Below are positions 1 through 11,232 of a stretch of DNA of 11,232 nt, piece by piece. This DNA is from an uncultured Ruminococcus sp. (GTDB taxonomy: Bacteria > Bacillota > Clostridia > Oscillospirales > Acutalibacteraceae). A program made the translations under genes and the position numbers. The stretch covers positions 1 through 11,232 of the forward strand of contig CACXHC010000035.1 of assembly GCA_902767285.1 (NCBI GenBank), read 5' to 3'. The stretch's first letter is position 1; every line of letters starts with the position of its first letter. The notes below the pieces were generated by a model. The model saw only the letters and a program-made list of their open reading frames with translations. It did no database searches and was not told the origin of the DNA.

Positions 1-15
1 AGTTTTTATTTTTCT

Positions 16-41
16 CTTCTTTTTTTTGAAAAAAAAAGAAG
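16..41. repeat. A/T-rich inverted repeat at the left edge
   Basis: CTTC plus eight T (16-27) pairs with eight A plus GAAG (30-41), leaving a two-base loop. AGTTTTT at 1-7 can also pair with AAAAACT at 46-52, so the whole 1-52 stretch could fold into one long imperfect hairpin. It may be the end of a terminator belonging to a gene left of the window. No coding sequence is visible in 1-278. Confidence 0.45.
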
Positions 42-141
42 CAAAAAAAACTTTTACTATATAAATTTTATATGTTTCAATGAACATTCTATAATTAGCA
101 AATAAACATTTTTTACACAATTAAAGTTTTTTGGAAAGGGT

Positions 142-177
142 TTGGGAAAACCTTTTTTTCAAAAAAGGTTTTCCCAA
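142..177. repeat. Perfect 17-bp inverted repeat (hairpin)
   Basis: TTGGGAAAACC plus six T (142-158) is exactly complementary to six A plus GGTTTTCCCAA (161-177), with a two-base loop. TTTGG near 129-133 and CCAAA at 183-187 could extend it past an internal loop. There is no T-run after the stem on either strand, so it is not a textbook rho-independent terminator. It could still end an upstream transcript or be an interspersed palindromic element. It lies about 50 bp upstream of the degV promoter. Confidence 0.55.
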
Positions 178-225
178 GAAAGCCAAATTTCACAGCACCC
201 AAAAACGCTTCCGAAAAAAAGGTGG

Positions 226-254
226 TTGACTAAAAATACAGTTTGTAATATACT
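226..254 (+). promoter_or_regulatory. Sigma-A-type promoter of the degV operon
   Basis: A -35 box TTGACT (226-231) and a -10 box TATACT (249-254) are separated by 17 bp. The expected start site near 261 would leave a leader of under 20 nt before the degV ATG, with the ribosome site AAAGGTG at 264-270. No operator is obvious. Confidence 0.7.
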
Positions 255-278
255 TAAAATAAAAAAGGTGTGTGACTC

Positions 279-1151
279 ATGAGTACATTTTCAATATTAA
301 CCGACACGGCGTGCGATATGCCTTATGCTACTGCAAAAGAACTCGGCATAACGGCTGTTCCGCTAAAAGTGACCCTTGCCGAAAAAAATTTCAGTTGCAA
401 GCTGTCAACTCTCGACATAGGAAATGCGAGCTTTTACGATACTTTGCGACATGGTGTTCCTGTAAAAACTGCCTCCCCGTCCATTGATGATTATATTAGA
501 TATTTCAGACGAATACTTGATTCCGGTAAAGATGTTCTCTACATAGGATTTTCAACAGCTTTGAGCGGTTCTTTCAATGTTGCGACAATCGCCGCCGAGG
601 AAATGGAGGAGCAATACCCAAATCGCAAGATTATTTGTGTGGACAGCTTGTGTGGCTGTATGGGACAATCACTCCTCATATATCGCTGTGTGGAAAAAAT
701 GAACGAGGGATTCTCAATTGAAGAAGTTCGAGATTACGCCGAAAGTATAAAAAGAAAAATTTATCACTGGTTTACTCCCGATGACCTGAATTTTCTCAAG
801 CGTGGCGGAAGAATTTCCGCTACCGCTGCCGCTGTCGGCTCGGTAATGAACATAAAACCTGTTATAAGAACTTCTCCCGAAACAGACGGCAAACTAAAAG
901 TTACTTATAAGGCTCGTGGCAGAAAACTCGCTATCGCAAAAATTGTTGAACAAATGAGTCAGACTTACGATAGAGAAAACGGTGGCACCGTGTTTGTTAC
1001 TCATGCCGATTGTGCCGAAGATGCCGACCTTCTCGCCCGCTCTATAATCAAAAATGTTGGTAATGTCGATGTTAAAATATCCGAAATAGGTATGGCTTTA
1101 GGAGCCCACTGCGGCCCCGGAACTATTGCTCTTTTCTATATAGGTAAATAG
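279..1151 (+). CDS. DegV family fatty-acid-binding protein
   Basis: DegV proteins are cytosolic two-domain proteins that hold a fatty acid. The FakB members present it to the kinase FakA so that host or medium fatty acids can be phosphorylated for phospholipid synthesis. At 290 residues the length is normal. Family landmarks are present in order: TDTACDMP (8-15), TASPS (64-68, the ligand-carboxylate Thr/Ser-Pro-Ser motif), GFSTALSGS (90-98), a DS-x4-MGQ motif, LKRGGRIS (173-180) and a C-terminal AHCGPG turn. In the middle motif the usual Ser before MG is Cys and a usual Gly after GQ is Ser, a mild departure. The ATG at 279 follows AAAGGTG by 8 nt. It is the first gene of the run, and the Nudix gene begins 13 nt after its stop. 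No fakA is visible here, so lipid specificity and a true FakB role are inference. Confidence 0.93.
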   Translation: MSTFSILTDTACDMPYATAKELGITAVPLKVTLAEKNFSCKLSTLDIGNASFYDTLRHGVPVKTASPSIDDYIRYFRRILDSGKDVLYIGFSTALSGSFNVATIAAEEMEEQYPNRKIICVDSLCGCMGQSLLIYRCVEKMNEGFSIEEVRDYAESIKRKIYHWFTPDDLNFLKRGGRISATAAAVGSVMNIKPVIRTSPETDGKLKVTYKARGRKLAIAKIVEQMSQTYDRENGGTVFVTHADCAEDADLLARSIIKNVGNVDVKISEIGMALGAHCGPGTIALFYIGK

Positions 1152-1164
1152 GAGGATATTCGTT

Positions 1165-1707
1165 ATGAATTTAGAAGAAAAAACATTGTCGTCAAAAGTT
1201 TTGTATGACGGCAAAATAATTAAACTTGAACTCGATGAAGTCGAACTTCCTAACGGAACAAAAGCAAAAAGAGAAGTAGCACGTCATCCCGCAGGAGTGT
1301 GCGTTGCCGCTGTTACCAAAGATAACGAGATTCTTTTCGTTAATCAATACAGATACCCGTATCATGAAGTAGTTTTGGAACTCCCCGCCGGAAAAGTTGA
1401 CGACCCAAAAACAACTCCTCTCGAAAATGCAAAAAGAGAACTTCTGGAAGAAACAGGTGCTGTCGGTTATAATTATGTTTCGCTTGGTGCAGAGTACGTT
1501 TCACCCGGCTTTACAGACGAAACACTCTATATGTATATGTGTCGTGTGGATCATTTCGAAAATCAACAGCTCGATGAGGACGAGTTTTTGAATGTTGAAA
1601 AAATTCCGCTCGATAAAGCTGTCGAAATGGTTATGAATAATCGCATTATCGATGGCAAAACTCAAACGGCAATCTTGAAAACGGCTTTTTTGCTTAAAAA
1701 TTCGTAA
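1165..1707 (+). CDS. Nudix hydrolase, ADP-ribose pyrophosphatase type (NudF-like)
   Basis: Likely hydrolyses ADP-ribose to AMP and ribose 5-phosphate in the cytosol, removing a reactive sugar nucleotide. The protein has 180 residues, typical for NudF-like enzymes. The Nudix box starts at Gly76 and ends in RELLEETG (91-98), which keeps the metal-binding glutamates. A proline (Pro114, in SPGFTDE) lies 16 residues beyond the box, the spacing used as the ADP-ribose signature of this subfamily. Compared with the strict GX5EX7REUXEEXGU pattern, the first half carries one extra residue and Thr in place of the early Glu. That Glu is not one of the core metal ligands, so activity is still expected. 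GGAGG lies 8 nt before the ATG, and the gene is 13 nt downstream of degV, so the two are probably co-transcribed. Confidence 0.92.
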   Translation: MNLEEKTLSSKVLYDGKIIKLELDEVELPNGTKAKREVARHPAGVCVAAVTKDNEILFVNQYRYPYHEVVLELPAGKVDDPKTTPLENAKRELLEETGAVGYNYVSLGAEYVSPGFTDETLYMYMCRVDHFENQQLDEDEFLNVEKIPLDKAVEMVMNNRIIDGKTQTAILKTAFLLKNS

Positions 1708-1714
1708 GAGAATA

Positions 1715-1753
1715 AAACACCTCGGAGAAGCAAATAATATTTCCGAGGTGTTT
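1715..1753 (+). promoter_or_regulatory. 12-bp hairpin holding the ribosome site of the next gene
   Basis: AAACACCTCGGA (1715-1726) pairs perfectly with TCCGAGGTGTTT (1742-1753), with a 15-nt loop. It starts only 7 nt after the Nudix stop. It could act as a weak rho-independent terminator, but only TTTAT follows the arm. The GAGGTG Shine-Dalgarno of the membrane-protein gene (1745-1750, 8 nt before its ATG) lies wholly inside the right arm, and CACCTC in the left arm covers it. Folding would therefore hide the ribosome site. Attenuation and translational control are both possible. Confidence 0.7.
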
Positions 1754-1758
1754 ATACT

Positions 1759-2133
1759 ATGAAAACAAATTCAAGTAAAATTTCGGCATTGTGGAAAGAT
1801 GACTCCGAAATATGTATAAAAAAAAGACTGTTCCTGCTCTTTATGTTTAATTTTTCGGACTGGGTATGCACTCTTTCTCTATTGCGTACAGGATTTTTTA
1901 AAGAAGCTAATCCGCTCATGCGTGACGTTATATCAAGCGTATATCTCGGACTTTTGGTAAAAGCAGTTATACCGCTTATTCTCATTTTGTTTGCGGTATC
2001 AAAAATAAAAGATGCCGATAAACGTCAACTTCTCATATCAAATAATATTGCACTGTTCGGCGTTTCGGTTTATTTTTTGCTGAATGTTTATCATATAGCG
2101 TGTTTTGTGGCAGTGCATACGATAATAAAATAA
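1759..2133 (+). CDS. Small DUF5658-like membrane protein
   Basis: A 124-residue integral membrane protein of unknown function. After a charged N-terminal stretch with KKR there are about three hydrophobic segments, at roughly residues 24-43, 60-80 and 92-122. The first contains a polar pattern with Asp in FNFSDW, then Thr, then Gly and EANPLM. This Asp-Thr-Gly-Glu-x-Asn-Pro arrangement is typical of the DUF5658 family as I know it. There is no cleavable signal peptide. The ATG at 1759 is chosen because GAGGTG lies 8 nt upstream, although that site is inside a hairpin. The stop is 14 nt before the ABC-F start, so the two genes probably share a transcript. Family assignment is moderately sure; the function is not known. 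Confidence 0.8.
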   Translation: MKTNSSKISALWKDDSEICIKKRLFLLFMFNFSDWVCTLSLLRTGFFKEANPLMRDVISSVYLGLLVKAVIPLILILFAVSKIKDADKRQLLISNNIALFGVSVYFLLNVYHIACFVAVHTIIK

Positions 2134-2147
2134 AAAGGAAAATAACA

Positions 2148-4040
2148 ATGTCAATTCTCTCTGTCAGTGGACTTTCAATGGATTTTGCCGAAAAGTCGCT
2201 GTTTAAAAATATATCATTCTTTGTAGAAAAAGGGGATAAAGTCGGTTTGATAGGTGCAAACGGCACCGGTAAAACTACTCTTTTTAAAATTCTCACGGGT
2301 CAGCTCGAACAAACAGGAGGTTCGATTTCCCGTGAAAAAGGATTAAAAATCGGCTATATGGAGCAATTTTCGTGCAGTCATCTCGATAGAACCGTCTATA
2401 CCGAACTCTTAAGCATCTTTCAGCCTCTTATCTCTATGGAAGAACGGCTCAACAGCATTGTGGAAGAAATAGAAAACGGCAATCATTCCGAAAAATTACT
2501 CGAAGAACAAATGATTCTGCGTGAAAAATTCGAGAATAACGGCGGTCTTACCTACGTCAGCCGAACAAATGCGACTCTTGTTGGATTGGGATTCGGTGAG
2601 GACAGCCGAAATATGTCGGTCGAAAAACTCAGCGGAGGTCAGCGATCCAAAATCGCACTCGCAAAACTTCTGCTCAGTAATCCGGATATTCTTCTGCTTG
2701 ACGAGCCTACAAATCATCTCGATATATCAGCTGTAAGCTGGCTCGAAAATTTTGTGAAAGAATACAAAGGATCCGCGATTATTATTTCTCATGACAGATA
2801 TTTTCTTGATAAAGTGACAAATAAAACTATCGAGATAGAACACGGAAAATCAAGAATGTATGTCGGCTCGTACTCCGAATTTATAGAAAAAAAGCAGAAA
2901 ATTTTGGAAGAACAAAAAGCTCATTACGAACAGCAAATGAAAGAAATTCACCGCATAGAAGGAATTGTGGAACAACAACGCCGTTGGGGTGTCGCCCATA
3001 ATTTCATAACCGCTGCGAGTAAGCAAAAACAAGCCGACAGAATAAAAGCCGAACTCGAAATCCCTGAATCCGAAATCGAAACTGTTAATTTTACATTCTC
3101 TCCCAAATGCGAAACCGGTGACGATGTTCTTATATGCGAAAATCTTGAAAAATATTTCGGCGATAAAAAAATTTTTTCGGACGTAAATATTCATATCCGC
3201 AAGGGTGAACGAGTTTTCATTTTGGGCGAAAACGGCTGCGGAAAAACAACTCTCCTCAAAATAATAAACAATATTTATACTGCAAATGCCGGGAGCGTGT
3301 ATCTCGGTGCAAACGTTGAAATGGGATATTTCGACCAAGTCCAAAGCGGTCTTGATTTAAAAAAGACCGCTCTTGAACAGATTTGGGATAGATTTCCGTA
3401 TCTTACCGAAACGCAAGTCAGAACTTCTCTCGGAAGATTTCTTTTTAAAGGCGATGAGGTTTTTCGTTCAATATCCGAAATGAGCGGAGGCGAAAGAGCC
3501 AGAATCGCTTTGCTCGAACTTATGCTAAAAGGTGCAAATTTTCTTCTCTTGGACGAGCCGACAAACCATCTCGATACTTCTTTCAGAGAAAATCAAGAAA
3601 AAACTTTGCTTGAATATTCCGGTACTATGCTCATTGTTTCGCACGACCGCTATTTTATAAACAAACTCGCTCACAGAGTTCTTGTTCTTGACCAAAACGG
3701 TGTTAAAGAATATCTGGGAAATTACGATTACTACATAGAAAAAACTTCTCCCGAAGTTAACAAGGATATTTTTCAACAGCCTAAAAAAGATAAAGAGAAA
3801 AAAACTCAGAATGAGTATTTTAAGCGAAAAGAAGAACGCTCTCAACTTGCAAGAGCAAAAGCCAATCTCAAAAAGTGCGAGGAAGCTATCGAAAATACCG
3901 AAGCCGAAATAGCTAAAATTCAAGAGGAGATTTCACTTATACAATCGGATTACGAAAAATTAGTTGAATTAACCCAAAAGCTCGGCGAACTAAACGAACA
4001 TCTTGATCAACTCTATGAACAATGGGCAGAGCTTAATTAA
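2148..4040 (+). CDS. ABC-F family ATP-binding protein
   Basis: A soluble ABC-F protein of 630 residues with two nucleotide-binding domains and no membrane part. The family binds the ribosomal E site to relieve stalling or, in some members, protect against antibiotics. Domain 1 has Walker A GANGTGKT (36-43), signature LSGGQ (161-165) and Walker B with LDEPTNHLD (Asp185, Glu186). The linker is charged and helical (about 240-310). Domain 2 has Walker A GENGCGKT (360-367), signature SGGER (446-450) and LDEPTNHLD (Asp469). The C-terminal 85 residues are a Lys/Glu-rich coiled coil like that of Uup/YdiF-type members. Both catalytic glutamates are intact. The ATG at 2148 is preferred over one at 2100 because AAGGAA lies 7 nt before it, the earlier start would overlap the preceding gene, and family homology begins here. 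Which subfamily it belongs to, and whether it gives resistance, cannot be told from sequence alone. Confidence 0.95.
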   Translation: MSILSVSGLSMDFAEKSLFKNISFFVEKGDKVGLIGANGTGKTTLFKILTGQLEQTGGSISREKGLKIGYMEQFSCSHLDRTVYTELLSIFQPLISMEERLNSIVEEIENGNHSEKLLEEQMILREKFENNGGLTYVSRTNATLVGLGFGEDSRNMSVEKLSGGQRSKIALAKLLLSNPDILLLDEPTNHLDISAVSWLENFVKEYKGSAIIISHDRYFLDKVTNKTIEIEHGKSRMYVGSYSEFIEKKQKILEEQKAHYEQQMKEIHRIEGIVEQQRRWGVAHNFITAASKQKQADRIKAELEIPESEIETVNFTFSPKCETGDDVLICENLEKYFGDKKIFSDVNIHIRKGERVFILGENGCGKTTLLKIINNIYTANAGSVYLGANVEMGYFDQVQSGLDLKKTALEQIWDRFPYLTETQVRTSLGRFLFKGDEVFRSISEMSGGERARIALLELMLKGANFLLLDEPTNHLDTSFRENQEKTLLEYSGTMLIVSHDRYFINKLAHRVLVLDQNGVKEYLGNYDYYIEKTSPEVNKDIFQQPKKDKEKKTQNEYFKRKEERSQLARAKANLKKCEEAIENTEAEIAKIQEEISLIQSDYEKLVELTQKLGELNEHLDQLYEQWAELN

Positions 4041-4044
4041 ACAT

Positions 4045-4066
4045 ATAACGAAAGGGCGATCGTTAT
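4045..4066 (+). promoter_or_regulatory. Hairpin spanning the ribosome site and start codon of the decarboxylase gene
   Basis: ATAACGA (4045-4051) is complementary to TCGTTAT (4060-4066). The Shine-Dalgarno AAGGG sits in the 8-nt loop, and the first two bases of the ATG are in the right arm. The stem is short and AT-rich, so it would be marginally stable. It may affect initiation or may be chance. Confidence 0.35.
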
Positions 4067-5429
4067 GAAAAACTCTCTTTATTCGGCACTGAAAAAACAC
4101 TCTCAGACGGGAACATACCCTCTTCATATGCCCGGACACAAACGTAATTTCGGTTCGGCTTTACCATACGATATAGATATTACCGAAATTTACGGATTTG
4201 ATGACCTCCATTCTGCCGATGGTATCATTAAAGAATGCTGTTTGAAAGCTGCCGAAATATACAAAAGTGACTCCGCATATATGCTCGTAAACGGCAGTAC
4301 CTGCGGGATTCTGGCGGCTGTATCTTCTGTGGCTCACCGTGGCGACAAAATAATAATTGCCCGAAATTGTCACAAATCCGTTTATAATGCCTGTATGCTC
4401 TCGGAACTTGATGCACGGTATATATATCCTCCAATGAGCAAATCGGGCATTTGCGGAAGCATATCGCCCGAAACCGTTCGTGCTGCTTTAACGGAATGTC
4501 CGACTGCAAAAGCCGTTGTCATAACTTCTCCTACATACGAAGGCGTTGTCAGCGATATTTCATCTATTGCCCGTGAGTGTCACTCACGCAAAATTCCGCT
4601 TATTGTCGATTCCGCACACGGCTCGCATATGCGTTTCTGTTCTTTCGGAAAATCCGGCGAGCCGATTTCTTCGGGTGCGGATATTGTCATAACAAGTCTA
4701 CATAAAACGCTTCCTTCGCTTACTCAAACCGCTTTGGCTTTCGTTAACGGCGAACTCGTAAACCGCAAACAATTCGAAAAATTTCTCTCTGTGTTTGAAA
4801 CCAGCAGTCCTTCTTACGTTCTCATGTCATCCATAGACAGATGCCTCGACTTTTTGAAAGTGAGCGAGAAATCCTTTGCCAATCTCGAAAAAAATCTTTC
4901 GGCATTTTATAAAAGAGCCGATAAACTAAATAATCTTAAAATAGTATGTTCGGATCCGACGTTTTTTTCGTTCGATAAAAGCAAAATAGCAATATCAACG
5001 GCAAATACGAATATTTCGGGCGTGGAGCTGATGAAAAAACTGCGTGAGGATTTTCGGCTTGAATTGGAAATGGCATATCCGACATACGCTTTGGCAATGA
5101 CAACTATATGCGATGAACCCGCTGTATTCAAACAATTATACTCGGCATTGGAACAAATCGACAAATCGTTAAAATCAAAAACCTGTACGGCTTTTCCGTC
5201 TTTGCCAAAACCGATGAAAATTCGCATGACAAACGCCGAAATAGATTCTTTGCCAATCATAGACCTCACTAAAGAACAAGCCGCAAGCGGAAAATATATA
5301 AGCAAGCATTTTGTTTATGCCTATCCCCCGGGAATACCCATAGTAACTCCCGGAGAAATTATAGGCTTGTTTGAGTATGATTATATGGAAATGCTGAAAA
5401 AATCCGGAGTTTCTTTTCGTTCGGTATAA
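4065..5429 (+). CDS. PLP-dependent Orn/Lys/Arg decarboxylase family protein
   Basis: A cytosolic fold-type I PLP enzyme of the bacterial ornithine/lysine/arginine decarboxylase family, whose products feed polyamine synthesis. At 454 residues it matches the compact Gram-positive members (B. subtilis SpeA and YaaO class) and lacks the N-terminal wing domain of the larger E. coli enzymes. Landmarks are PLHMPGHKR near the N terminus, NGSTCG (phosphate-binding loop), NCHKS (His that stacks on PLP), SPTYEG, VDSAHGSHM (181-189; Asp182 binds the pyridine nitrogen) and SLHKTL with Lys214 as the Schiff-base lysine. The C-terminal part ends in YPPGIPIVTPGE, also conserved. All catalytic residues are present. 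Substrate choice cannot be read from the sequence. It starts 24 nt after the ABC-F gene with a GAAAGGG ribosome site and is the last gene of the run. Confidence 0.93.
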   Translation: MKNSLYSALKKHSQTGTYPLHMPGHKRNFGSALPYDIDITEIYGFDDLHSADGIIKECCLKAAEIYKSDSAYMLVNGSTCGILAAVSSVAHRGDKIIIARNCHKSVYNACMLSELDARYIYPPMSKSGICGSISPETVRAALTECPTAKAVVITSPTYEGVVSDISSIARECHSRKIPLIVDSAHGSHMRFCSFGKSGEPISSGADIVITSLHKTLPSLTQTALAFVNGELVNRKQFEKFLSVFETSSPSYVLMSSIDRCLDFLKVSEKSFANLEKNLSAFYKRADKLNNLKIVCSDPTFFSFDKSKIAISTANTNISGVELMKKLREDFRLELEMAYPTYALAMTTICDEPAVFKQLYSALEQIDKSLKSKTCTAFPSLPKPMKIRMTNAEIDSLPIIDLTKEQAASGKYISKHFVYAYPPGIPIVTPGEIIGLFEYDYMEMLKKSGVSFRSV

Positions 5430-5441
5430 AATCAAGAAAAA

Positions 5442-5476
5442 ACAAAAGGGAACCGCACGAAGCGGCCCCCTTTTGT
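5442..5476. terminator. Hairpin terminator between convergent genes
   Basis: ACAAAAGGG (5442-5450) pairs with CCCTTTTGT (5468-5476), and CCGC (5453-5456) with GCGG (5462-5465). A 2x2 internal loop separates the two stems and the apical loop is five bases. On the minus strand a run of six T follows directly (5436-5441 read in reverse), so it is a strong terminator for the 89-residue gene. On the plus strand the T-run lies inside the stem, so it may also stop the decarboxylase transcript. Confidence 0.8.
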
Positions 5477-5521
5477 GGTCTAACATCTAACATCAAAATT
5501 ACAAGGAATCAGCTAAATTAA

Positions 5522-5791
5522 TTATTCTTCAACTTTTGCTTCACCGGTATCGCCGAGCAAGTTGAATCTAAAGAGCTTTCTCTCATCGTTAGGATTTTCA
5601 GCGATGATATAAGCCTCAGCGATCTTTCCACCCTCTATAAGCTGAGTCAAGCCAACGAGCTGGCAGAGCTTACTTCTAAGGTTAAGGTGGTCGCCCTCTT
5701 TTGTTACTAAAAATACGTTTCCTTCGCAAGTGTCAAGCACGGCAAGGAACTTAGTAACATCAATGTCATGTAATTCAAGAATCGGTGTCAT
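5522..5791 (-). CDS. Small conserved-looking hypothetical protein (89 aa)
   Basis: I do not recognise a function. The protein is soluble, 89 residues and acidic at the C terminus (ending AKVEE), with no signal or membrane segment. The alternating pattern around residues 12-45 (a helix, then CEGNVFLVTKEGDHLNL, then an amphipathic stretch with two Cys) suggests a small alpha/beta fold. The overall look matches short, one-domain clostridial proteins usually left as hypothetical; this is recognition by eye only. The start is secure: AGGAGG (5805-5800) sits 8 nt before the ATG. It is transcribed alone, with its own strong promoter (5891-5918) and the hairpin terminator at 5442-5476. The strong promoter and ribosome site suggest good expression. 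Confidence 0.75.
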   Translation of the reverse strand: MTPILELHDIDVTKFLAVLDTCEGNVFLVTKEGDHLNLRSKLCQLVGLTQLIEGGKIAEAYIIAENPNDERKLFRFNLLGDTGEAKVEE

Positions 5792-5890
5792 AAATTATTC
5801 CTCCTAAATAATCAACGTGCCTACTTTGATTTTCTTCTCATTTCGGGAAATACTGCAGGTCGTTTTTTGTTTCTCTCAACCTGTGATTTT

Positions 5891-5918
5891 ATTATAACAC
5901 AAAATTTGTAAATGTCAA
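5891..5918 (-). promoter_or_regulatory. Extended -10 sigma-A promoter of the 89-aa gene
   Basis: Read on the minus strand, a perfect TTGACA -35 box (5918-5913) is followed after 16 bp by a perfect TATAAT -10 box (5896-5891), with TGT just before it (extended -10). The start site would be near 5884, giving a leader of about 90 nt. I see no known riboswitch in that leader. The core is identical over 17 nt to the phoH promoter. Confidence 0.8.
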
Positions 5919-6138
5919 CAAAAAAATAACAAATCTTTGTGCAAGTCAAAAAATCGGTTGTTAAAGACCAATAAATATTTGATTGATTTTTTGTGTTGTT
6001 TTCACAACTAAAATTCTTGTAAAGAAAATAAGGTTACAGCGGAGCAATACTTTTTTATGAATAAAATCAAAAACAAAAATCAAACAAAAGATAGATTTGG
6101 TATTTTCGCCGTTTTTGATAAAACCTTAATTTTTCAAA
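5919..6138. other. Gene-free AT-rich spacer
   Basis: Between the 89-aa gene promoter and the ybeY terminator I see no gene, strong hairpin or repeat. A 38-codon frame from the ATG at 6057 runs straight through the ybeY terminator stem and has a poorly spaced ribosome site (GGAG 13 nt or more upstream), so it is not called. Confidence 0.5.
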
Positions 6139-6171
6139 AAAATAAAGCCGCTCTGCATGGGGCGGCTTATT
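6133..6171 (-). terminator. Rho-independent terminator after ybeY
   Basis: On the minus strand AATAAGCCGCCCC pairs with GAGCGGCTTTATT around a short loop (CATGCA), with one bulged base, and a run of seven T follows. It lies 16 nt downstream of the ybeY stop and should end the phoH-ybeY transcript. Confidence 0.85.
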
Positions 6172-6186
6172 AAAATACAACAAAAA

Positions 6187-6690
6187 TCAGTTCTCGTCAA
6201 TAACATAAGATGCCGAAGCAGGCAATCCGAGTTGTTCCATAACGAGTTCTTCCTTTTCACGCATATGAACTTTTTCGAGATTAGTTTCATGATCATAGCC
6301 TAAAAGATGAAGAACCGAATGTGCCGTCAGATACGCAACTTCACGCTGTATTGAGTGTCCGTAAAGTGCCGCCTGATCTTCCGCTTTTTCCATAGATATG
6401 ACCACATCGCCAAGCATTTTCGCACCGGTTTCGGGGTCTGTATCATAATTTCCGTTTTCACCGAGAGGGAAAGAAAGAACATCGGTAACAGAATCTATAT
6501 TTCTGTACTGTTTGTTCAGCTTGTGTATTTCTTCGTTGTCAACAAATGTAACGCTTACTTCGGCTGAGCCTTCGAAATTTTCAAGTTTAAGCACAGCCGT
6601 GCAACAACGGCGTACAAGCATCTTCATACCTGTGGGGAATTTTACTTTTTTCTGCTTGTTGGTAATTACTACCTTGATCTTGTTAGTCAA
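6187..6690 (-). CDS. ybeY: Endoribonuclease YbeY (16S rRNA maturation)
   Basis: YbeY is a zinc-dependent single-strand endoribonuclease needed for 16S rRNA 3'-end processing and ribosome quality control. The protein has 167 residues, normal for the family. The hallmark H-x3-H-x5-H zinc site is seen in HSVLHLLGYDH (His124, His128, His134). Upstream are the conserved LNKQYRNID-TDVLSFPL segment and the GDVVIS motif. The start appears to be TTG at 6690: it gives the full N terminus, AGGAGG lies 9 nt upstream within the last codons of phoH, and no ATG is suitably placed. The phoH stop is only 6 nt before this start, so translational coupling is likely. The phoH-ybeY order is standard in Firmicutes; here the transcript ends after ybeY, so the often-following dgkA/cdd/era genes are not adjacent. 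Confidence 0.95.
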   Translation of the reverse strand: MTNKIKVVITNKQKKVKFPTGMKMLVRRCCTAVLKLENFEGSAEVSVTFVDNEEIHKLNKQYRNIDSVTDVLSFPLGENGNYDTDPETGAKMLGDVVISMEKAEDQAALYGHSIQREVAYLTAHSVLHLLGYDHETNLEKVHMREKEELVMEQLGLPASASYVIDEN

Positions 6691-6696
6691 TTTCCT

Positions 6697-7614
6697 CTAC
6701 CTCCTTTGATTTTTGTCGGACTGTTCATAAGCCCTGATAATATCTTGAACAAGACGATGCCGCACAACATCTTTTTCGTTAAAAGTGACCTGAGCAATAT
6801 CGTTGATATTTTTCTGAACTTTCATGCACTCTTTCAGACCGCTTTTTCTACCGTCTGGCAAATCGATTTGTGTAACATCTCCCGTTATTACCATTTTTGA
6901 ATTGAAACCCAAACGAGTCAGGAACATTTTCATTTGTTCGCCTGTTGTGTTTTGAGCTTCATCAAGAATAATAAAACTGTCATCGAGGGTACGTCCTCTC
7001 ATATATGCGAGGGGGGCGACTTCGATATTTCCTCTTTCAACATATCGATGATAAGTTTCCGCTCCGAGCATATCAAAAAGAGCATCGTACAGCGGTCGCA
7101 GATACGGGTCAACCTTGCTTTGCAAATCTCCCGGAAGGAAACCGAGTTTTTCGCCGGCTTCAATAGCAGGTCTTGTCAAAATTATTCGGTTGACTTCGTG
7201 GGCTCTGAATGCCGTTACCGCAAGAGCAACTGCAAGATACGTTTTGCCTGTTCCGGCAGGGCCTACACCGATAGTTATAGTATTGTTTTTTATAGCATCG
7301 CAATAATGCTTTTGACCGATAGTTTTAGGCTTGACGGGCTTGCCTTTGGCAGATACGCAGATACAATCTCCCGAAAGAGTCGTCAAACGGCTTTCGGAGC
7401 CTTCATTGACAAGCGATATGCAGTATCTGACATTCTGCTCGTTTAGGGTTTCGCCTTTATTGATGAGCATCAGCATACTTTCGACAGCTTTTGCAGCGAG
7501 TGCAACATACTCGGGATCACCGCATATTTTGAGTTCCGAATCTCGCATTAAAATTTTAACGCCGTATGATTTTTCAACTATCTTTATATTTTCATCAAAA
7601 CTGCCGAACAGCAT
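6697..7614 (-). CDS. phoH: PhoH-like protein, P-loop ATPase; N terminus possibly frameshifted
   Basis: A cytosolic PhoH-family ATPase related to the helicase-like PhoH/PhoL proteins and routinely paired with ybeY. From the ATG at 7614 it has 305 residues. Walker A is GPAGTGKT (118-125) and Walker B ends in LDEAQN (Asp218, Glu219); TGDVTQIDLP is also conserved. The frame stays open upstream of 7614 for 19 codons that read like the usual family N terminus (TTEQTINIERLEQAV). No standard start codon exists in that stretch, and the ATG at 7663-7661, just after an AAAGGA site, is one base out of frame. Without base 7660 the protein would have 321 residues, close to the family norm. The ATG at 7614 has no good ribosome site. 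Translation may start at a rare codon (ACG or ATA), or the base is an indel or error. The annotated start is conservative. Confidence 0.9.
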   Translation of the reverse strand: MLFGSFDENIKIVEKSYGVKILMRDSELKICGDPEYVALAAKAVESMLMLINKGETLNEQNVRYCISLVNEGSESRLTTLSGDCICVSAKGKPVKPKTIGQKHYCDAIKNNTITIGVGPAGTGKTYLAVALAVTAFRAHEVNRIILTRPAIEAGEKLGFLPGDLQSKVDPYLRPLYDALFDMLGAETYHRYVERGNIEVAPLAYMRGRTLDDSFIILDEAQNTTGEQMKMFLTRLGFNSKMVITGDVTQIDLPDGRKSGLKECMKVQKNINDIAQVTFNEKDVVRHRLVQDIIRAYEQSDKNQRR

Positions 7615-7717
7615 TACAGCTTGTTCAAGCCTTTCGATATTTATTGTTTGTTCCGTTGTGCATCTTTCCTTTCATGATTGTGATAGCAATATTTTTAACA
7701 GAGATGACATCACAATA

Positions 7718-7753
7718 TGTGTTTATTATAACACAAAAAAAATTAAATGTCAC
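7718..7753 (-). promoter_or_regulatory. Extended -10 promoter of phoH-ybeY, overlapped by a small palindrome
   Basis: On the minus strand GTGACA (7753-7748) and TATAAT (7730-7725) are spaced by 17 bp, with TGT before the -10 box. The -10 lies inside an inverted repeat, TGTGTT-N6-AACACA (7718-7735), which could be an operator. The same 17-nt core (7722-7738) recurs in the promoter of the 89-aa gene at 5888-5904. Confidence 0.75.
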
Positions 7754-8093
7754 TAAAAAACAATAAAATTATTTATAAAAATAAATTTTTATTAAAATAC
7801 AACAAACAAAAAGGCTTTAGAACGTTAGAATTGACATATTCAGACAGTATTTTGATATATTTTTTTGTAGATTTGTTTACAAAAAGATTTAGGCAAAAAA
7901 AGATAGCCTAACGGACAGTATTTAATCATATAGTAACATTTTTAAAAAATATTATTGATTATTTGTTTATTTTGCCTTTTTTACTTAAAAATAATGACTT
8001 TTTGCTAAAAACATAAAAATATTTTTGTTCAAAACGTTAAAAAATCACAAAAATTAATTATATGCTTAAAAAAAATATAAAATTTTTTATAAA
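7754..8093. other. AT-rich divergent intergenic region
   Basis: No gene is visible. The DNA is very AT-rich with many A- and T-tracts. GACAGTATTT occurs twice in direct orientation (7843-7852 and 7914-7923, 71 bp apart). A 6-bp inverted repeat, TTAGGC/GCCTAA (7889-7894 and 7906-7911), lies between them. A TTGACA at 7831-7836 has only poor -10 candidates (GATATA at 17 bp, TATATT at 19 bp). These could be regulatory sites for the large gene at 8150, but nothing is decisive. Confidence 0.4.
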
Positions 8094-8127
8094 TTGTATT
8101 GAAAAAATATTCCGAATATAGTAAAAT
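8094..8127 (+). promoter_or_regulatory. Probable promoter of the large modular-protein gene
   Basis: Two overlapping registers each have 17-bp spacing: TTGTAT (8094-8099) with TATAGT (8117-8122), and TTGAAA (8099-8104) with TAAAAT (8122-8127). The gene's ribosome site AAGGAG (8135-8140) follows, 9 nt before the ATG at 8150. The leader would be short. Confidence 0.55.
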
Positions 8128-8149
8128 TTATAAGAAGGAGTGATTTTAT

Positions 8150-11100
8150 ATGCTCGATGCAAATAACGGTAAAAAACCTACTGACAGATTAAAATTTGAA
8201 ATGAATGAAAACACAACCCTCGTCCTTCAAAATGAGTTCTGCGAAATCTATAAAGATACAAGAGCCGGTAAGACTTTTAAAGTTATCGGCGGCGAAATAG
8301 TCCCCATAGAGCTGCGTGAACTGAATATGTGGAAGGGCAGGCAGAAAACCCCTACAAACTTTGTTGTTAAGCCCTTGAAAGATGAAAGAGGTATTCCTTA
8401 TGATTACATCATAACAAGAGTTACCCGTGGTGCGGCTCCCGAATTTGATTTTGACGCAACACCCATGACGTCAGCTGTACCTATGGCTCCACAGAGATCC
8501 ATCCCTCCGACACCTCCTGTTCCCCCTGTGGCTCAGGTTGCATCGGTAGCACCGGTAGCACCGGCAGCACCGGTAGCACCGGTAGCACCGGCAGCACCGG
8601 TAGCACCAATAGCACCGACAGCACCACCGGCAGTACCTGTTGCACCTGTCGCCTCGGCAATACCGGCGGTAAGACCGGCACCGCCCAGACCTGCTAAGGC
8701 ATCCAAACCCATTGTCACGGTTATAGAAGATTCCGAACGTGAATCAAGAATAAAATTTGTTGCCTCGGGCGATTTTGACGAAATATTCTCAAATGAGTAT
8801 TTCCCTGTTTACAGAGATAAAGTTAGAGGCCGTACATTTAAAGTTGTTAACGGTGAAGTTGCCAATATTGAAGTTCGTGAACTCAATATGTGGAAAAACC
8901 AGCTCAAAAAGCCGGGCGAATTTAATATTACAATAATCAACGACAAGCAGGGCAATCCATACGATTATAAAATTGAAAGAGCATCCGACCCCGGTGCAGC
9001 GTCAAGTATTCCTGTTATGAATCCGCAGAGATCTGTTCCGCCGGTTGCTCCTGTGGCTACTCCTGCTCCTGTGGCTAATTTGACACAGCAGAGAACGGTT
9101 CCTCCTGTTGCTTCCGCAGCTCCTGTTACTCCGCAAAGAACCGTTCCGCCGGTTGCTCCACAGAGAACAGTTCCGCCGGTTGCTCCTGTTGCCGCTCCTG
9201 CTCCTGTGGCTAATTTGGCACAGCAGAGAACTATTCCTCCTATTGCTCCGCAGAGATCTATTCCGCCTGTTGCACAGCAGAGAACTGCTGCTCCGGCTCA
9301 AAGAGGCCGTGGCGGAAAGACAATCGATATGAACGGCACAAAACCAACAAGCCGTGTTATATTTGTAGATAACGATACAACAGAAAAAGTTTTTGAAACC
9401 GAGTTCTGCAAATTCTACAAAGATAAAAGAGCCCCGAAAATATTCAAAGTTATTGATGATGAAATCGTTCCCATAGAACAACGTGAGCTTAACTGGTGGA
9501 AACAACGTGAAAAGAATCCTGCGGGATTTGTTGTTACTGTCATGAAAGATGGCGGAAAACCATACGATTACATTATCTCCAAAGTAGAAGAGGACGGCAC
9601 ACTGACCGCGGCTCCTGCTGTTATGGCTCCGGTGCCTGTAATCGTACCTGATACGCCTATTCCGGGACTCACGCCTATTTCTCCCAGAGGCGGTCAATCG
9701 ACATCGGCGGCAGCTGCTCCAGATTCGGTAGGCGTTGTTAAGCAGCCCGACCTCAAGAGAGTTAAATTTGTAGAAACAGAATCCATGAAATGCTTGCTCA
9801 CAAACGAGTATTTCAAAATATATACCGACTCTCGCCGTGGTGCGACTTTCAAAGTTATAAACGATGAAATAGCTCCGTTGCCTCAGCGTGAGTTGAATAT
9901 GTGGAAGAACCGTGAACGCCGTCCGAAGGACTTCTCCGTAAAGGTTATCAACGACCCCAGCGGTAAAGTTTACGATTACGAAATAACAAAAATAGCCAAT
10001 GTTACAGCCGCCGTTGAAACAACAACCACAAAGACGAATCTTCCGCCTGTAACAGAGCGTCTGAACGTTGGCGGAAACAAACGCCGTCCCAATGCAAGCC
10101 GTGTTATAAACTGTGCTTTGTGCGGAACAGAACACAAAGAATCCGAGCTGTTCCTGTTTGGAAATAAGAACATTTGCTCCGATTGTATGGAAGTTCTCGT
10201 AAAAGAGAAATTGTTTGCAAGCGAACACGTTGACCCCGTTCAGAAAAATATAGACGATATAGTTGCGGCAGACGAAATTTACTGCACATACTCTCTTGTT
10301 ACAAACTACCCCTATCTTAATGACGATTTCTGTGTTAACATCTGCACAATAAAGAGAGCTGCTGAACTTGGTATTCCTGATACTATCGCTCAGACGATAG
10401 ACGAAAAAGGCGATTTCTTTGATGATTTGAAGCGTTTTGGTCTTAAGAAAATCATAGTAAACAATGACAGCAGTCACATTTATTCTCCCGAAGATTTTGA
10501 TGTTCATGTAAAGAGCGATGGTCTTATAGCTCCCAAACTTTACTTCAAAGTACTCAACTATATGCAGAGAGGAAACGACTCTCTCCGTGAAACAATTGCC
10601 GAGTCATTCTTGGGCAGCAAGGTCTATACATACGCTCTCAACGATGATATTACCGAAATCACCGACGAGAATATAGACGACTTCAAACCGCTTACATTTA
10701 CAGATGGCAAGAACAATTTCTGCCCTGTATTTACCGACTTTACCGAGGCGAGAAGCGTTGGTATGCCGTTCAAGGGTCTTTATGAAATTGAAACAAGACT
10801 TCTTGCTTTCCGCAAGATAACTCACTTCATAATAAATCCGCAAAGTCTTGGATTTATCATGAACAAAAAAATACTTGAGGGCGTTACTCCGAACTACGAC
10901 AGATCTATTATAGACGAGGACGATAAGCGTATTAAGGATATCGACTCTTATCAAAATCCGTTCGATATTGAGGACGAAGTAGCTGATCAGGAAGCCAAAA
11001 GAAAAGCCGCTGAAGAAGCTAAAAAGATAACTGATATACAAAATGCTGCTGATGCCGTTATAACTGATATACGAAATGCCGCCGATGCTGATATAGCAAA

Positions 11101-11232
11101 GGAAAAGGCTGTTGCAGAAGCTGCTCAAGAAGCCGAAAGAAAAGCCAAAGAAGCTGAAAAAGCAGCTAAACAAGAGGCTAAAAAAGCTCGCAAAGATGCT
11201 GAAAATGCTCGAAAAGAAGCCGAAGATGCAAA
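8150..11232 (+). CDS. Large modular protein: four novel repeats, zinc ribbon, two SseB-like domains, coiled coil (partial, 3' end off window)
   Basis: The frame is open from the ATG at 8150 to the window end (1027 codons, no stop), with AAGGAG 9 nt before the start. It has no signal peptide or membrane segment, so it is probably cytosolic. In order: four ~80-residue repeats (about 12-93, 199-278, 401-480, 536-616) sharing R-x-x-F, NE[FY], Y-x-D, FKV[IV], RELNxWK and YDY; Pro/Ala-rich linkers, one made of nine VAP-like triplets (133-159) and one of QR[ST][VI]PP motifs (from 293); a C4 zinc ribbon (Cys655, 658, 676, 679) resembling the ClpX zinc-binding domain; two segments like the SseB N-terminal domain (about 708-790 and 824-915), the second with FCPVFTDFTEAR and FIINPQSLGFIM; and a Lys/Glu/Ala coiled coil from about 944 with an 11-residue period. 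I do not recognise the repeated domain. The shape suggests a multivalent adaptor or scaffold (inference). It is transcribed divergently from phoH. Confidence 0.88.
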   Translation, partial: MLDANNGKKPTDRLKFEMNENTTLVLQNEFCEIYKDTRAGKTFKVIGGEIVPIELRELNMWKGRQKTPTNFVVKPLKDERGIPYDYIITRVTRGAAPEFDFDATPMTSAVPMAPQRSIPPTPPVPPVAQVASVAPVAPAAPVAPVAPAAPVAPIAPTAPPAVPVAPVASAIPAVRPAPPRPAKASKPIVTVIEDSERESRIKFVASGDFDEIFSNEYFPVYRDKVRGRTFKVVNGEVANIEVRELNMWKNQLKKPGEFNITIINDKQGNPYDYKIERASDPGAASSIPVMNPQRSVPPVAPVATPAPVANLTQQRTVPPVASAAPVTPQRTVPPVAPQRTVPPVAPVAAPAPVANLAQQRTIPPIAPQRSIPPVAQQRTAAPAQRGRGGKTIDMNGTKPTSRVIFVDNDTTEKVFETEFCKFYKDKRAPKIFKVIDDEIVPIEQRELNWWKQREKNPAGFVVTVMKDGGKPYDYIISKVEEDGTLTAAPAVMAPVPVIVPDTPIPGLTPISPRGGQSTSAAAAPDSVGVVKQPDLKRVKFVETESMKCLLTNEYFKIYTDSRRGATFKVINDEIAPLPQRELNMWKNRERRPKDFSVKVINDPSGKVYDYEITKIANVTAAVETTTTKTNLPPVTERLNVGGNKRRPNASRVINCALCGTEHKESELFLFGNKNICSDCMEVLVKEKLFASEHVDPVQKNIDDIVAADEIYCTYSLVTNYPYLNDDFCVNICTIKRAAELGIPDTIAQTIDEKGDFFDDLKRFGLKKIIVNNDSSHIYSPEDFDVHVKSDGLIAPKLYFKVLNYMQRGNDSLRETIAESFLGSKVYTYALNDDITEITDENIDDFKPLTFTDGKNNFCPVFTDFTEARSVGMPFKGLYEIETRLLAFRKITHFIINPQSLGFIMNKKILEGVTPNYDRSIIDEDDKRIKDIDSYQNPFDIEDEVADQEAKRKAAEEAKKITDIQNAADAVITDIRNAADADIAKEKAVAEAAQEAERKAKEAEKAAKQEAKKARKDAENARKEAEDA
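8546..8626 (+). repeat. Nine tandem 9-bp units coding for Val/Ala-Ala-Pro
   Basis: Nine units close to GTAGCACCG follow each other in frame, with GCAGCACCG variants and drift in the last three units. They encode residues 133-159 of the modular protein, in its first linker. The unit length is a multiple of three, so slippage would lengthen or shorten the linker without breaking the frame. Confidence 0.9.
9026..9306 (+). repeat. Imperfect repeats coding for QR[ST][VI]PP linker motifs
   Basis: The second linker carries six copies of Gln-Arg-Ser/Thr-Val/Ile-Pro-Pro followed by Val/Ile-Ala, plus a degenerate seventh (QRTAAPA). One related copy is in linker 1. A longer unit around PAPVANL-x-QQRT occurs twice, pointing to internal duplication. 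The region is basic (Arg) and proline-rich, so it should be extended and disordered. Confidence 0.85.
11027..11089 (+). repeat. 33-bp tandem duplication in the coiled-coil region
   Basis: Two adjacent 11-residue units beginning ITDI and containing NAADA (from residue 960) differ at few bases. Later residues keep an 11-residue Ala/Glu/Lys rhythm up to the window edge, consistent with a hendecad coiled coil. Confidence 0.75.

Follow-up and report, generated by a model that had tools for sequence, protein, structure and literature searches.

The window analysed here is a DNA stretch of 11,232 nucleotides (positions 1..11,232) from an uncultured Ruminococcus sp. and represents one entire contig of a genome of 1.93 Mb (323 contigs, 97% complete). 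Its right-hand part is occupied by the 5′ part of a gene encoding a giant modular protein. As nothing of the contig lies beyond the window, the truncation of the gene is due to an assembly break, which falls within repetitive DNA in the spacer region. The C-terminal part was not found elsewhere when the same assembly was searched for it. The encoded portion carries four copies of a domain of about 82 residues, here named X, followed by a four-cysteine (C4) finger, two SseB-like domains (S1 and S2) and the start of a spacer (Table 1). Scans of this partial protein against Pfam and NCBIfam gave nothing above cut-off.

Table 1. Features of the window, with the giant gene and its parts listed before the other genes
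Feature	Position	Strand	Details and basis
Giant gene, 5′ part	8150..11230	+	1027 residues, uninterrupted frame, open at contig end; frame list
Ribosome-binding site AAGGAG	8135..8140	+	9 bases ahead of ATG; read from sequence
X domain copy 1	8180..8425	+	residues 11-92; repeat profile
Linker 1	8426..8740	+	rich in Pro/Ala/Val/Gln (68%); 9/27-base tandem repeats at 8536-8625
X domain copy 2	8741..8986	+	residues 198-279; repeat profile
Linker 2	8987..9346	+	rich in Pro/Ala/Val/Gln (62%)
X domain copy 3	9347..9592	+	residues 400-481; repeat profile
Linker 3	9593..9754	+	50% Pro/Ala/Val/Gln
X domain copy 4	9755..9997	+	residues 536-616; repeat profile
C4 finger	10112..10186	+	C655-x2-C658-x17-C676-x2-C679; four Cys invariant in 25/25 rows
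SseB-like domain S1	10250..10585	+	residues 701-812, invariant C712, C728, C732; profile-profile alignment, conservation
SseB-like domain S2	10586..10885	+	residues 813-912, invariant C858; profile-profile alignment, conservation
First codon bases of the invariant SseB-pair cysteines	10283, 10331, 10343, 10721		
Spacer start	10886..11230	+	helix-like charged run from residue 971 (11060-11230)
degV	279-1151		frames and Pfam
NUDIX	1165-1707		frames and Pfam
DUF5658	1759-2133		frames and Pfam
Two-cassette ABC ATPase	2100-4040		frames and Pfam
Orn/Lys/Arg decarboxylase	4065-5429		frames and Pfam
89-residue frame without Pfam family, between decarboxylase and ybeY	5522-5791	-	frames and Pfam
ybeY	6187-6690	-	frames and Pfam
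phoH	6697-7614	-	frames and Pfam

Database searches yielded 29 homologues (24 in a first and five in a second search), all of which hold their parts in one fixed order: one or more X domains, the finger, a first SseB pair, a spacer of acidic character and then another tandem SseB pair (S3 and S4). The acidic spacer and the second pair are the part missing from the window. Most homologues are 1300-1650 residues long; those with several X domains (1177-1650 residues) run past the point where the window ends, and six short forms of 879-963 residues carry a single X. Five X copies are present in two homologues, four in 18, three in two, two in one and one in six. P0013 (two copies) and P0022 (three copies) look N-terminally incomplete, and the homologues that look complete have one, three, four or five. 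The finger, S1, S2 and S3 were found in all 29 proteins and S4 in 28, the exception (P0002) being called partial by its source. The spacer between the SseB pairs measures 167-495 residues and is net negative in every homologue, and by a composition threshold it is helix-like in 11. The acidic spacer, and not a coiled coil, is the conserved feature of the family. PF27701 appears as a precomputed annotation on P0011 and was absent from our own Pfam scan of that protein. Chance is excluded as an explanation of the arrangement, because 29 database proteins hold the parts in the same order and ten genomes hold the gene unbroken.

The initial annotation had described a giant modular protein of no named family, with a four-copy domain, a zinc ribbon, two SseB-like domains and a long coiled coil. 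The observation is confirmed and its interpretation partly supported. Profiles, invariant cysteines and the 29 homologues bear out the parts and their order within one frame; no stop or frameshift splits them between 8150 and 11230, or in the ten genomes with the unbroken gene. Four X copies are indeed present and typical of the family, but the number is not fixed. A charged helix-like run does start in the window, but by the composition threshold 18 of 29 members lack it. The anticipated further domains past the contig end are there in the homologues, and the two SseB-like modules have become, in the whole protein, two tandem pairs related to known tandem SseB proteins and with an apparently Tic22-like predicted fold.

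The finger cysteines C655, C658, C676 and C679 are invariant in all 25 aligned rows, and so are C712, C728 and C732 of S1 and C858 of S2. All eight are also invariant in a second alignment, which has 24 rows, the six short forms among them. Strict letter patterns fit the S1 stretch in 26 of 29 homologues and the finger in 22. The S1-like stretch was compared by eye in 35 of 36 related SseB proteins (all but P0058), and at the positions matching C712, C728 and C732 none of them shows a cysteine; the nearest case is P0063, with a cysteine two residues ahead of the C728 position. From this conservation pattern, the four invariant cysteines of the first SseB pair are a possible second metal site.

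A profile of the X domain finds the four copies in the window protein with domain E-values of 1.2e-36 to 1.8e-41. Copies 1-3 were among the sequences that seeded this profile; copy 4 was detected without being in the seed. When 67 X copies were compared with Pfam, the best match had an E-value of 0.0073 (WWE_3, in two of the 67 copies), and the best match among PDB sequences had an E-value of 0.69; NCBIfam was scanned with the window's giant protein only. As searched, X thus has no convincing match in Pfam or in PDB sequences and appears to be an undescribed domain. All 67 copies share F6, K34, N49, W51, F61, G71 and I78, which suggests that they may all bind one kind of ligand. In an AlphaFold2 model, X is predicted to fold into four strands, one helix and two strands.

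To follow the history of the array, we built a tree of 90 X copies, of which 67 (all different, each 76 residues or longer) came from the window and the named loci and 23 from ten database proteins. Eight rows from four contigs cut at their start were left unlabelled, and L048, likewise cut, retained its labels, which are probably shifted by one. The position labels needed 13 changes, compared to a mean of 45.9 after shuffling, and none of 200 shuffles reached as low a number. For each of the window's copies 1-4, the closest sequence is the copy with that number in a relative, and in proteins with five copies the second and third arose by recent duplication. Some features speak against a simple history: none of the positions X1-X4 forms a single clade (each requires at least 2-4 changes on well-supported branches), and X1 and X2 of P0017, L045 and L049 cluster with X4 copies. 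The tree has few columns and many poorly supported forks. On this phylogeny the array is old, with position largely, but not strictly, preserved.

The SseB assignment draws on several comparisons. The SseB family PF07179 was not listed for the partial window protein in the Pfam scan. At E ≤ 0.5 it matched five of 25 giant-family proteins. In separate scans it exceeded the cut-off in S4 of P0017 (30 bits), and the C-terminal region encoded by the gene of genome G015 just reached it (21 bits). SseB_C (PF14581) was not listed for the window protein, six further scanned giants or P0026, nor in the scan of 25 proteins among the best 25 of 28 families. In profile-profile alignments, a family of 36 proteins collected with L152 at E ≤ 0.001, of which 36 carry PF14581 and 33 carry PF07179, aligned with S3-S4 at a probability of 99.2 and with S1-S2 at 95.5. 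Direct alignment of S1-S2 with S3-S4 failed, and single SseB halves gave no significant match to each other. By these alignments, the C-terminal pair is evidently homologous to SseB+SseB_C proteins of 380 residues.

The AlphaFold2 model was made for the one-X form P0026 from the alignment of 24 rows. Block means of the predicted local distance difference test (pLDDT) were about 65-90 in X, the finger and S1-S4 and 47-58 between S3 and S4, while pLDDT was mostly below 50 in linkers and spacer; the predicted template modelling score was 0.34. In a Foldseek search the sole match at E ≤ 0.001 was Tic22 (4ev1, E 3.1e-4), a protein of chloroplast and cyanobacterial protein import whose fold consists of two repeats in tandem, yet with a template modelling score of 0.24 on the target and a root-mean-square deviation of 19.6 Å over 274 columns. 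VIA-align gave TTHA0547 (2z0r) as best match, on S3. A whole-model search barely probes X, and the absence of an X row in VIA-align carries no weight. S3 and S4 appear similar to TTHA0547 and Tic22 in their predicted fold. When the full profile was run against the sequences of solved structures, no match fell below E 0.01, and what came up was mostly helical and finger matches.

A relationship of SseB to Tic22 is proposed in the available part of PMC9503650, which also places SseB in ADP-ribosylglycohydrolase systems and cites the Salmonella translocon protein SseB; chaperone-like activity of Tic22-III is described in the available part of PMC12895209. Our literature searches found no paper naming PF07179 or 'SseB family protein' and a single one mentioning SseB together with Tic22, and for giant proteins, the rumen and Oscillospiraceae the sole match, of which a part was available, treats proteins of over 40,000 residues. 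The Salmonella protein we take to be a different one sharing the name. The architecture is new and unnamed, built of partly known parts plus one undescribed domain, where 'undescribed' rests on these literature searches and on the Pfam, NCBIfam and PDB sequence searches.

The giant gene is present in 21 of 22 genomes of the genus, including its own, the exception being a genome of 68% completeness, and in none of 18 other genomes of the order (three of them in the same family). In ten of the 21 it is unbroken in one frame of 1523-1644 residues, and in 11 contig breaks fall inside it. We further searched samples of the order, family, class and phylum, which overlap, so that their counts are not additive. 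The whole protein was found in 3 of 394 genomes of the order sample, all of the same genus, and in 8 of 398 of the family sample, namely six of the genus and two of other genera with weak S3-S4 matches (L151 and L152), which are tandem SseB proteins of about 380-430 residues. X alone was found in 2 of 391 genomes of the class sample (its own and G668) and, in the phylum sample, in its own genome only (1 of 398). The G668 match (E 1.4e-4, positions 11-42 of 84, in a frame of 882 residues) was taken as chance; the only check was a re-score, with E 1.8e-6 in a small set. None of the genomes searched contained a one-X short form. In these samples the family is restricted to one genus. Nineteen named loci come from metagenome genomes labelled Ruminococcus, Clostridiales or Clostridia, with two titles mentioning the rumen and duodenum of dairy cattle, and most of the rest carry RUG labels, which we take to denote rumen; the host is a gut bacterium, probably from the rumen. 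A phage origin was considered and dropped: 31 stretches of the viral collection fitted a pattern and none was confirmed as a relative. PHROGs matched only the helical spacer of P0001.

Coding divergence of the gene was estimated from nine loci, of which L014 was dropped (only 73 codons aligned); the remaining eight represent six genomes, two of them included twice. Nonsynonymous divergence in the core was 0.10-0.19, and synonymous divergence was saturated for six loci and 3.5 for two.

In 27 stretches from the 21 genomes no gene constantly adjoins the giant. The description of the gene as standing alone is therefore upheld, and the comparison across Clostridia that the initial annotation called for gives a family limited, in the genomes sampled, to one genus. 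With no conserved neighbour, the giant acts alone or with distant genes. Genes that we read as ctsR, mcsA, mcsB and clpC lie nearby in six of the 21 genomes (all four in three), and a gene read as aroB in four. In the window itself, 535 bases at 20% GC separate phoH from the giant frame, and the two-cassette ABC ATPase is presumably of the ABC-F type. No RNA element was matched in an Rfam scan of the window, and no promoter is claimed (three found vs 6.1 expected from shuffles).

SseB proteins over the Pfam cut-off occur in 22 of 22 genus genomes, compared to 2 of 18 others. Among 20 SseB stretches, 11 hold a small SseB protein (172-231 residues as called) and the other nine a longer one of 280-364 residues. 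A helix and zinc-ribbon protein follows within four frames downstream of the small protein in all 11 stretches, and the zinc ribbons were confirmed by Pfam in the two scanned. On the genome's own contig C89 (L113:4342-5737), the protein after the small SseB protein combines a helix with zinc ribbons and a Pro-rich tail. These separate genes thus parallel the modules of the giant, with its SseB domains, zinc finger and Pro/Ala-rich segments, by encoding SseB, zinc finger and Pro/Ala-rich tails apart from one another. A LigT-like phosphoesterase adjoins the small SseB gene in five of the 20 stretches, including L131:5637-6347, the one checked with Pfam. Genome G031, of the same order, encodes a protein of 748 residues joining ADP-ribosylglycohydrolase, SseB and macro domain (L092:514-2760, minus strand).

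A match on the genome's own contig C226 (L005:3-2477, plus strand) was considered as the missing 3′ part of the giant and ruled out: by profiles its relatives (L144:3132-9377, L145:4491-9155 and L146:3649-9654) lack X, finger and SseB, and it belongs to a different giant. The largest frame of this second giant is 1418-2204 residues in six relatives, and matches to it occur in 19 of the 22 genus genomes but in none of the 18 others. It shows four to six pattern matches for C4 fingers (WKCPxCGxxNxxY...CxCG), presumably RanBP2-like, on Pro/Gln-rich linkers around a long charged helix; a form of 2081 residues had no Pfam family at E ≤ 0.01. In L144 (2-2971) it lies directly 3′ of carboxyltransferase, biotin carrier and PYC_OADA genes. 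A frame of 467-497 residues precedes it in six relatives (Pfam check on L144 alone), and a protein of alpha-amylase type with CBM26, CBM48 and MucBP adjoins it (L005:3104-6319, L145:420-3749).

The giant is real, conserved, unnamed and, as sampled, genus-restricted; its architecture is new, its core domain of a known kind. The cytosolic adaptor that clusters partners, as put forward in the initial annotation, would fit this anatomy. We tentatively read it as a large scaffold of the cytosol, built on Tic22-like, chaperone-type domains and engaging many partners simultaneously, with a holdase-like or assembly role. The two SseB pairs would hold exposed peptides or unfolded segments of clients; the X domains, with one invariant core (N-x-W) on Pro/Ala linkers, would all bind one kind of target repeatedly and gain avidity; and the finger might pair or dock the protein. 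The outcome would be a holdase-like or assembly scaffold for a process special to this genus. Such a multivalent holding scaffold uses all parts and may well be correct, though we would not call it probable: the mechanism leans on a fold resemblance and on proposals in the available parts of PMC9503650 and PMC12895209.

The giant could instead be a structural organiser that forms, with the second giant, a cytoplasmic meshwork or condensate in which the SseB domains are merely glue and do no chaperone work. Multivalent modules on Pro/Ala linkers, the uniformly acidic spacer and a second genus-restricted giant with repeated fingers, linkers and charged helix are in line with this, but there is no sign of the two giants meeting, six members have a single X, and most invariant columns fall in the finger, S1 and S2 (incomplete rows depress the count elsewhere), more than glue seems to need; we consider it rather unlikely. 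That it brings clients to ClpC or another protease as a quality-control adaptor is improbable. The finger recalls that of ClpX (PF06689) and the presumed ctsR/mcs/clpC genes are sometimes near, but the match scores 14.7 bits in the window protein (E 0.029) and 13.3 in P0001, below the cut-off of 27 bits; four of the 25 scanned proteins match, at best with E 0.00026. Moreover, the neighbourhood is not conserved, and in the window phoH and ybeY lie alongside. A role in conflict or immunity, for which the link of SseB to ADP-ribose systems (available part of PMC9503650) and the G031 fusion, in one genome of the order, could speak, is very improbable: the gene is kept in 21 of 22 genus genomes rather than being patchy, no viral contig holds a confirmed relative, and PADLOC matched only the helical spacer of P0001 (JetC, E 0.00064), with no match in the window protein or P0026. 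A fusion of separate genes by misassembly, conceivable given the repetitive DNA and the contig breaks, is already refuted by the ten genomes with the unbroken gene in the same order and by the agreeing database proteins.

A more far-reaching version of the holding scaffold would take X as a new interaction domain and the eight invariant cysteines as two metal sites, making the giant a metal- or redox-gated peptide-binding hub that works with the second giant and with the paired small SseB and zinc-ribbon proteins, in a genus whose cytoplasm had evolved to be eukaryote-like, organised by giant multivalent proteins of its own. This is a long shot. A core gene of about 1500 residues, in one genus as sampled, made of chaperone-like modules is unusual. 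Besides the undescribed domain and what may be a second metal site within SseB domains, it allows a test of whether SseB domains are, as proposed, chaperones of the Tic22 kind. Should it prove to be a scaffold, one could ask in a clean setting why a bacterium whose genome is about 2-3 Mb bears the cost of multivalent proteins in the eukaryotic style.

Among known systems, the tandem SseB/SseB_C proteins (PF07179 + PF14581, about 380 residues, P0030-P0065) share the tandem SseB domains and are alignable over both, but they lack X, finger and spacer, and all 36 carry SseB_C, which is not listed for the giants. The C4 zinc finger of ClpX and DUF4428 have two CxxC pairs in common with the giant's finger, with weak profile matches; unlike in ClpX, no AAA+ domain was found in the window protein, and its finger stays below the curated cut-off. 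In the G031 protein, the link between SseB and ADP-ribose that the available part of PMC9503650 describes takes the form of a fusion. TTHA0547 of Thermus (2z0r) has about 100 residues and is titled hypothetical protein. Tic22 is small (226 residues in 4ev1) and, according to the available part of PMC12895209, a protein of the intermembrane space, whereas the giant has extra modules and is read as cytosolic.
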